In this document: piece after piece, positions 1 to 42,560 of the stretch
How the letters are laid out: every line of letters starts with the position of its first letter
Position numbering within the stretch: position 1 is the first letter of the stretch
Assembly (NCBI RefSeq): GCF_010672525.1
Contig: NZ_JAAHGH010000061.1
Span: 1-43,267 of the forward strand
Source: Okeania sp. SIO2B3
GTDB lineage: Bacteria; Cyanobacteriota; Cyanobacteriia; Cyanobacteriales; Microcoleaceae
Length of the DNA stretch: 43,267 nt
Reading direction: 5' to 3'
Notes under the pieces: generated by a model
Seen by the model: only the letters and a program-made list of their open reading frames with translations
Told to the model about the DNA's origin: nothing
Database searches by the model: none
Position numbers and translations under genes: made by a program

Positions 1-241
1 TATTACTTTGAATTTTGTTTTGATTGACATGAATCATTTTTGGTGTGGTAGATTCTCTCTTGCGCCACATACCTTTCGGACCCCGCCGAGCCGGAATTAT
101 TACAGGCATTCCACTGTCTGAAACTGGTATTTCCCAGAATCTGCCTTTTTTTTCGGCTCCTTTAACTCTTCCTTGAGCTAATAAAACTAATAAACGTTGA
201 CGAGATATACCTAATAAAAAAGATGCTTCTCTAGTACCCAT
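1..241 (-). CDS. HTH DNA-binding protein, partial (C-terminus off window)
   Basis: An open frame of at least 80 codons starts at ATG 241 on the minus strand and runs off the left edge without a stop. The N-terminus (MGTREASFLLGISRQRLL) looks like the winged-helix fold of excisionase or MerR-like proteins (HTH_17 type): a helix-turn-helix followed by a short wing with the residues GRFWEIP. The next stretch is basic (ARRGPKGMWRKR). Such small proteins bind DNA, often as autorepressors or recombination directionality factors; the role here is inference. A 22-bp palindrome (253-274) lies about a dozen bases upstream of the start and is a natural operator candidate. The gene reads in the same direction as the toxin-antitoxin genes to its right but is separated from them by almost 400 bases. 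Confidence 0.6.
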   Translation of the reverse strand, partial: MGTREASFLLGISRQRLLVLLAQGRVKGAEKKGRFWEIPVSDSGMPVIIPARRGPKGMWRKRESTTPKMIHVNQNKIQSN

Positions 242-252
242 GATTTTTTTTA

Positions 253-274
253 TTAACTATTGGACAATAGTTAA
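253..274. promoter_or_regulatory. Palindromic operator candidate upstream of the HTH gene
   Basis: TTAACTATTG-GA-CAATAGTTAA is a perfect inverted repeat with 10-bp arms and a 2-bp centre. It ends 12 bases from the start codon of the HTH protein. Its inner 18 bp are identical to the centre of the MITE copies at 12000 and 42506, are the reverse complement at 19399, and match over 16 bp at 34159. Its position suggests autoregulation by the HTH protein (inference). The flanks do not carry the MITE ends, so it is not an intact MITE. Confidence 0.5.
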
Positions 275-636
275 AGTTTATAAGATGTCTATTATATATA
301 AAGTTACTTAAAAGCAAATATAAACAAAATTATTGGTTTTGTCAACAAGAGAGTTTGCGCTCAAAAGTATGAGTGGTTAGGGTAGGAGTCAACTGAGACG
401 ACCTAAACCTGAACCAAGAAGTCCCAAATTCCCAATACTACGAACTTAAAGCGCATTACCCGCAGAGTTAAGGGGCGGTTTTGAAACTTAGGTTCCATTT
501 GGCTACAGAAATAATAATTCAGACACTTACTGAACTAAAAAGGTTTGAACTAATCACAACTGCCTGGCGAGTTTTTTTGATTTCTTGACCTCTAGTCGGG
601 TCTAGTTGTACGAATCAAACTTCTCCTCTTTTAGGA
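275..636. other. Intergenic, repeat-derived
   Basis: No gene is seen. The stretch from about 344 (gagtttgcgctcaaaagtatgag, continuing to about 392) resembles the ends of repeats at 17752, 20269, 23411 and 30558. The remainder is AT-rich without a coding frame. A PIN toxin expected downstream of a DUF2281-type antitoxin was looked for and not found. Confidence 0.5.
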
Positions 637-11962: not shown

Positions 11963-12053
11963 CAGGATTTACGCAAAGACACTATGTATAGAGTCCAGTA
12001 ACTATTGGACAATAGTTAAAAGTACTATATATAGCGTATCTGCGTAAGTCCTA
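11963..12053 (+). mobile_element. 91-bp MITE, copy A
   Basis: Begins CAGGATTTACGCA and ends TGCGTAAGTCCTA, near-perfect 13-bp inverted ends. It is flanked by the 5-bp duplication ATCAT (11958-11962 and 12054-12058). The centre is the 18-bp palindrome AACTATTGGACAATAGTT at 12000-12017. It is inserted in the end sequence of another repeat (AATATCATGTCCGG), splitting it. It has no coding capacity. Confidence 0.9.
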
Positions 12054-19231: not shown

Positions 19232-19453
19232 TAGGACTTACGCAGATACGCTATATAGCAATGAGCGCTGGTGTATTTACAAATTGCAGGAGAGGCCAAA
19301 TAGCTAAAAGTCTTATATTATCAGTAATTTATTCCCCCTTCCGGAGCTGTTGCTTTCCGGAGCTGTTGCCTGCGCACAGCGCTATATATACTGCTCAAAA
19401 CTATTGTCCAATAGTTACTGGACCCTATAAATAGTGCCTTTGCGTAAGTCCTG
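19232..19453 (+). mobile_element. 91-bp MITE, copy B, split by a 122-bp insert
   Basis: Ends TAGGACTTACGCA and TGCGTAAGTCCTG, flanked by AGTAA (19227-19231 and 19454-19458). It is 222 bp rather than 91 bp. The extra 131 bp equals a 122-bp insert (19258-19379) plus a direct duplication of CGCTATATA (19249-19257 and 19380-19388). The central palindrome (AACTATTGTCCAATAGTT, 19399-19416) is intact. Confidence 0.85.
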
Positions 19454-34120: not shown

Positions 34121-34211
34121 CAGGACTTACGCAAAGGCACTATTTATAGAGTCCAAGTACTATTGGACAATAGTTTTGAGCGCTATATATGGCGTATCTG
34201 CGTAAGTCCTA
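34121..34211 (+). mobile_element. 91-bp MITE, copy C
   Basis: Ends CAGGACTTACGCA and TGCGTAAGTCCTA, flanked by ATTAT on both sides (34116-34120 and 34212-34216). The central palindrome is ACTATTGGACAATAGT, 34159-34174. Noncoding. Confidence 0.9.
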
Positions 34212-42469: not shown

Positions 42470-42560
42470 TAGGACTTACGCAGATACGCTATATATAGTA
42501 CTCATAACTATTGGACAATAGTTACTGAACTCTATACACAGTGTCTTTGCGTAAGTCCTG
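42470..42560 (+). mobile_element. 91-bp MITE, copy D, inside the dead kinase
   Basis: Ends TAGGACTTACGCA and TGCGTAAGTCCTG, flanked by TTGGT (42465-42469 and 42561-42565). Central palindrome at 42506-42523. Removing 91 bp plus one TTGGT joins IYYQ to VRLLDTTG in the kinase frame. The MITE brings a stop after about ten codons when read through. Confidence 0.93.

Follow-up and report, generated by a model that had tools for sequence, protein, structure and literature searches.

The window (the whole stretch of DNA analysed, 43,267 nucleotides from Okeania sp. SIO2B3) is an entire contig, C208, of a 10 Mb genome in 249 contigs. At its low-coordinate end, an operator-like palindrome adjoins the start of a gene for an HTH protein. 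The features of this region are:

2..241, minus strand: N-terminal part of the HTH gene, 80 amino acids translated, running off the contig
253..274, minus strand: operator-like palindrome TTAACTATTGGACAATAGTTAA, which reads TTAACTATTGTCCAATAGTTAA on the strand of the HTH gene
264..291, minus strand: weaker promoter-like sequence TAGACA-16-TATTGT, its second hexamer inside the palindrome (consensus match only)
317..345, minus strand: promoter-like sequence TTGACA-17-TATATT, upstream of the palindrome (consensus match only)

The start codon of the HTH gene occupies positions 239-241 on the minus strand, leaving 11 bases to the 22-mer and 13 to its inner 18-mer. The adjoining position claimed in the earlier note is therefore correct, while the distance is 11 and not 12 bp. 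The description of a small HTH protein holds for the HTH gene but not for the size, as the translated part is the beginning of a protein of approximately 157 amino acids that is cut at the contig start. The C-terminal part matching the truncated gene opens contigs C30 and C35, and a second copy of the gene (99% in protein) stops in the same manner at the end of contig C26, so that the interruption looks like an assembly break. The two promoter-like sites found in the palindrome region compare with 0.8 expected, which by itself is no evidence for a promoter.

The N-terminal HTH resembles Pfam HTH_17 (PF12728), with scores of 19.4 and 16.9 bits that stay below the curated cut-off of 27. For the C-terminal half, the match is to phrog_8676 (E 4.4e-12), a family of unknown function; seven phage records, among them MN698245.1 and OR003939.1, contain relatives of this half with no HTH part attached, annotated in one case as a DNA-binding protein. 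No transposase or recombinase domain was recognised in the HTH protein. A profile search of solved structures returned three matches, all at chance level; a plasmid search gave no match, and no relative was confirmed in viral contigs. An AlphaFold model built from 15 close sequences had a mean pLDDT of 37 and was set aside.

The inner 18-mer is present exactly at positions 255, 12000 and 42506 on the plus strand and at 19399 in reverse, and a fifth site at 34158 differs in the first base only, its inner 16 bases being exact. This amounts to 10 matches in the window (five sites, each on both strands), compared with 0.07 expected by chance. All sites except that at 255 lie within copies of a miniature transposon (MITE) of about 89 bp, which has the terminal inverted repeats AGGACTTACGCA and TGCGTAAGTCCT, no coding capacity and many copies. 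The copies in the window are:

11964..12052, plus strand: MITE copy with the 18-mer at 12000-12017; left end with one mismatch
19380..19452, minus strand: MITE copy with the 18-mer at 19399-19416; low-coordinate end lost, start approximate
34122..34210, plus strand: MITE copy with the palindrome at 34158-34175, one mismatch
42471..42559, minus strand: oppositely oriented MITE copy; the palindrome, at 42506-42523, has its centre flipped

The claim that the inner 18 bp form the centre of the MITE is thus borne out by four copies (exact at 12000, 42506 and, in reverse, 19399; 16 bp at 34158). The MITE ends had been reported as absent around the lone site, and indeed none flank position 255.

Among 148 related genomes, 29 contain homologs of the HTH part, with up to 38 in one genome. 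Close homologs were defined by the motif QRLLVLL or QRLLILL (n = 39); the palindrome is located upstream of 38 of them, and the single exception has different upstream DNA. The palindrome carries 1.85 bits per base in 20 non-redundant flanks, compared with 0.31 in the upstream flank. For the wider family, 90 loci gave 64 non-redundant upstream regions; 37 of these contain ACTATNGNNCNATAGT within two mismatches, where 0.24 would be expected, and 28 of the 37 sites are centred 20-22 bp upstream of the residue aligned to the first residue of the window protein. The dyad therefore sits at a near-fixed place before a regulator gene, as is characteristic of autoregulated HTH genes. An unspecific test for any dyad upstream of the HTH genes gave a weak result, which counts against the operator reading. 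Upstream of some HTH genes there are tandem partial copies comprising the operator and the first part of the gene (loci L168 and L170, at about 1450-2300; G002:C687:21210, 21704 and 21906). Downstream of the HTH genes, the first 150 bp or so after the stop codon show conservation between paralogs and fall into two types (for example, L171 2472-2616).

These data bear on the suggestion that the site is the remnant of a MITE insertion, kept by chance before one HTH gene. At one homolog (L074), the operator does have a MITE immediately upstream. Against this, the site accompanies nearly all of the close homologs, MITE ends are lacking at 253-274, and a cognate site exists in genomes that hold no repeat copies of it. 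The lone site as a decayed MITE is rejected on these grounds, and we give the remnant explanation hardly any credence. The palindrome is likewise not restricted to decayed MITE remnants; such a restriction was what the earlier note had named as fatal to its own proposal.

The recognition region of the protein and the sequence of the site were compared on a tree of 66 proteins, with motif and site tallied among those having a site within three mismatches. The sixth pair of the site is T:A for 34 of 34 proteins with the motif ISxQRL or MSxQRL; for the ICxQRV proteins its left base is A in 9 of 9, and the pair is a full A:T in 8 of 9. Eighteen of the 66 proteins, including two ICxQRV and one SxQRL protein, have no site within three mismatches, and two ISxVRL proteins with weak sites show A:T; both observations count against the operator reading. 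The T:A and A:T groups neighbour each other in the Okeania/Trichodesmium clade (fork 97/90) and, a second time, in a clade formed by two distant genomes (fork 97/92). With the two states present in both clades, motif and site have changed together at least twice, again as expected for autoregulated HTH genes, with the 18 proteins lacking a site not usable for this comparison. Upstream of the genes of a third subfamily (ISTGRL), there are sites like ACTANAACGTTATAGT, and the operator-like types of the three HTH subfamilies are represented by AACTATTGTCCAATAGTT, ACTATAGTGCTATAGT and ACTATAACGTTATAGT.

This co-variation also bears on a possible role in RNA, in which the palindrome would form a hairpin in the 5' leader of the HTH mRNA. 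The palindrome adjoins the ribosome-binding region, with a promoter-like site upstream, and the version in the window folds at -2.7 kcal/mol. However, a folding energy of only -0.4 kcal/mol was obtained for the common version, AACTATTGTCCAACAGTT, which does not improve on shuffled sequences, and the change in the arms goes with the recognition motif of the protein. As the common version hardly folds, action as RNA is very unlikely, and a hairpin was rejected as the main function on the basis of this folding energy.

Alternatively, the HTH gene, the palindrome and the conserved 3' trailer could together be a mobile cassette, the palindrome being its end or a recombination site and not an operator. 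Paralogs are homologous over a block that begins near the palindrome and ends some 150 bp beyond the stop codon, the sequences on either side of it being unrelated, and the tandem partial copies described above would also agree with a cassette. In deeper paralogs, however, the site is kept while its arms have changed to match the HTH motif; the protein lacks a recognisable transposase or recombinase domain; and several upstream flanks are common to different species, a situation that fits fixed loci. We therefore regard the cassette as quite improbable.

In the source genome, the palindrome has 426 strand matches with up to two mismatches (an exact site being counted on both strands), compared with one for the reversed control. 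With up to one mismatch there are 268 strand matches, and the copies at this level are put at some 260. All 98 exact sites of the 18-mer in this genome were classified, by end patterns or by a neighbour within 230 bp. A count inside and outside MITEs had been proposed in the earlier note; it places 49 sites in MITEs or their remains, 48 in tandem arrays and one in neither. That one, the sole exact copy outside MITEs and arrays, is the site before the HTH gene of the window. Lone copies in many unrelated places, which would mark a small dispersed repeat, were thus not observed among the 98 exact sites.

The 49 MITE copies lie between co-directional genes in 31 cases, convergent genes in 7 and divergent genes in 6, with one neighbour unknown in the remaining 5; no copy falls inside an open reading frame of at least 90 amino acids, and their positions have no promoter bias. 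With none inside such reading frames and only 6 of 49 between divergent genes, control of the neighbours of the MITEs is not indicated, and the proposal that MITE-adjacent genes come under shared control finds no support here. At one place (G003:C68:134749-134766), a single-mismatch palindrome is followed by what appears, as read from the sequence, to be part of a tnpB-type gene.

The MITE is not tied to a single centre. The source genome contains 105 MITEs with both exact ends; among the 50 of these that were listed, the centres as judged by eye are T:A in 24, A:T in 2 and other in 24. The ACTATNGNNCNATAGT centre is present in 42 of 107 shells in the source genome; for the four further genomes of its genus the figures are 63 of 127, 7 of 35, 15 of 77 and 35 of 73. 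In nine other genomes such shells number 0 to 2 per genome, and in the Trichodesmium group the palindrome hardly ever lies in an intact shell of this sort (0 to 2 per genome), which counts against the reading as a captured operator. ACTATAACGTTATAGT, which resembles the sites of the third subfamily, is present in 11 of 14 genomes, and the 17 loci seen comprise 11 shells (with full or partial ends), one array and five other contexts. The shell itself was found, with many centres, in 43 of 79 genomes; in G061, G017, G022, G091 and others it encloses other palindromic centres, which may be sites of other proteins.

Within the MITE, the palindrome arms vary less than the other internal columns (0.032 compared with 0.159; permutation p 0.013) in 23 copies, 16 of them distinct; these are the T:A set of 24 minus one of different length, picked by eye partly for the centre, so that selection is present in this comparison. 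The two central bases are the most variable (0.453). That the MITE carries and spreads the putative binding site of a regulator, as the earlier note had offered as one of two readings, is well supported by comparison of sequences, namely by the conservation before the HTH genes, the co-switching, the single-copy sites and the three centre types, and the same may be said of the presumed capture of operators by mobile elements.

Tandem arrays are a second setting of the palindrome. Eleven array loci, including one with a variant palindrome, were inspected. At least one end, GGCTTTGTTGCA or TGCAACAAAGCC, of a second type of element is present at 8 of them, with both ends at 5 loci and neither at 3. 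Regular spacings in these arrays span 58 to 99 bp, and the spacers are unrelated between loci. One array locus of a related genome (L117) has 19 sites, and arrays of variant palindromes occur in other genomes too. Helical phasing, considered by eye, was rejected, as the regular spacings differ between loci (58, 66, 70-71, 76, 77-78, 81-82, 96/99 and 153 bp).

The distribution among genomes gives an indication of the order of events. ACTATTCCGCAATAGT, the site of one subfamily, is found exactly once in each of two distant genomes, G140 and G100, in both cases just before an HTH gene; G100 has in addition one single-mismatch site. The 11-base core GTATAGCGCTA of another subfamily is frequent in three distant genomes, with 58, 41 and 43 matches against a single one for the control in each, in mixed contexts, so that not every subfamily's core is single-copy there, which counts against the operator reading. 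The palindrome is present within one mismatch in 15 of 148 genomes, a narrower range than that of the MITE shell, and in more than one copy in 12 of the 15; all 12, which belong to only three genera, have HTH homologs at E <= 1e-24. Counting against this association, the best homologs in G034 and G028, with 87 and 4 palindrome matches, are of another subgroup (61-63% identical). An order in which the operator came first and the MITE later fits best with these distributions, although they do not prove it.

The same data can be set against an alternative that treats the palindrome as a tiny mobile repeat in its own right, one that inserts into MITEs and tandem repeats and that came to lie before the HTH gene by chance. 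The small dispersed repeats (SDRs) of Nostoc, from the work of Elhai et al. 2008, are reportedly such dispersed units of about 20 bp, also located inside minitransposons and tandem repeats. Our palindrome occurs in two types of element, in arrays whose spacers are unrelated, and also before a gene, all of which would agree with this, as would the many other palindromic centres of the MITE shell elsewhere. On the other hand, an inserting repeat would not account for a near-fixed place before HTH genes at many loci and in many genomes, for a site that switches with the HTH motif, or for the single copy before an HTH gene in G140 and G100. Furthermore, the source genome has no exact copy outside a MITE, an array or the HTH operator, and a non-systematic look met no filled and empty pair of a bare palindrome. 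A mobile repeat of this kind is accordingly considered unlikely.

Taken together, the palindrome is probably an autoregulatory operator of the HTH protein, old in the paralog family, that was captured and spread by miniature transposons. The HTH protein would bind the two half-sites, presumably as a dimer, at its own promoter, and would control its own gene, most likely by repression. In the large paralog family the operator would be old, with the HTH recognition region and the half-site having changed together. In the Okeania/Trichodesmium lineage, the miniature transposons with AGGACTTACGCA ends, and a second type with GGCTTTGTTGCA ends, may have taken up such operators several times, and the captured operators would then have spread, partly as tandem arrays, to the present copy number. 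The protein may also bind the mobile copies, in which case titration of the regulator would follow, and silencing or helping of the elements by the HTH protein is possible.

A more far-reaching version, which we put forward only tentatively and consider rather doubtful, is one of co-diversification. Each HTH subfamily would recognise its own operator type together with the elements that carry that type, either silencing them, as bacterial counterparts to the zinc-finger repressors of transposons, or helping their movement. Hundreds of mobile operators would form a sponge and thereby determine how much of the regulator is free, and the three types in one shell would reflect rounds of contest.

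Our proposal of a captured autoregulatory operator has its nearest precedents in MITEs with an IHF site and in repeats with a CcrM site. The Correia/NEMIS MITEs of Neisseria carry an IHF-binding site, the deletion of which changed the expression of a neighbouring operon (PMC10969869, PMC2229807). Here too a MITE bears a site, putative and derived from sequence comparison, for a protein of the host. In contrast to IHF, which is a general nucleoid protein, the putative operator belongs to a specific, multiplied HTH family, and several operator types share one shell and also occur in arrays. The CIR repeats of Caulobacter (PMC2229807) likewise share a conserved site for a host protein with a regulatory role, GANTC for CcrM; that site is a short methylation motif, in contrast with the operator-like 18-bp dyad here. 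The REP/REPIN sequences and RAYT transposases (PMC3116915) also combine dispersed palindromes with a linked protein family in the same genome, whereas in our case no transposase domain was recognised in the candidate partner, an HTH protein.

The palindrome shares with the Nostoc SDRs the dispersed units of about 20 bp in minitransposons and tandem repeats. To our knowledge those repeats have no partner protein, whereas a candidate partner is present here. The SDR work (Elhai et al. 2008) is cited in PMC4390886, PMC3116915 and PMC3733652. In the literature covered, which was partial, no description of the palindrome, of the HTH family or of operators in cyanobacterial MITEs was recognised, and a word search of the main text of a 2024 review of prokaryotic MITEs returned neither 'operator' nor 'repressor'.

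As far as we know, the dispersed palindromes of bacterial genomes are mostly without a known partner protein. In the present case, the candidate partner, the home site and the mobile copies can all be named, and the specificity rule (SxQRL with T:A, ICxQRV with A:T) makes the link between protein and site directly testable. If binding holds, this would be a naturally occurring example of operators being captured repeatedly by transposons, and of an operator sponge on the scale of the genome.

A further feature of the MITE concerns its central two bases. The 18-mers at 12000 and 42506 are identical and lie in oppositely oriented MITEs, so that, relative to the MITE arms, the central GA has become TC. 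Among the 49 MITE copies, the centre read in this way is GA in 33 and TC in 14, with 2 unsure. The flipped centres look like an inversion of the spacer between the palindrome arms; the copies at G002:C6:24491 and G002:C59:15856 are the same over the 80 bases shown, save for the flipped centre.
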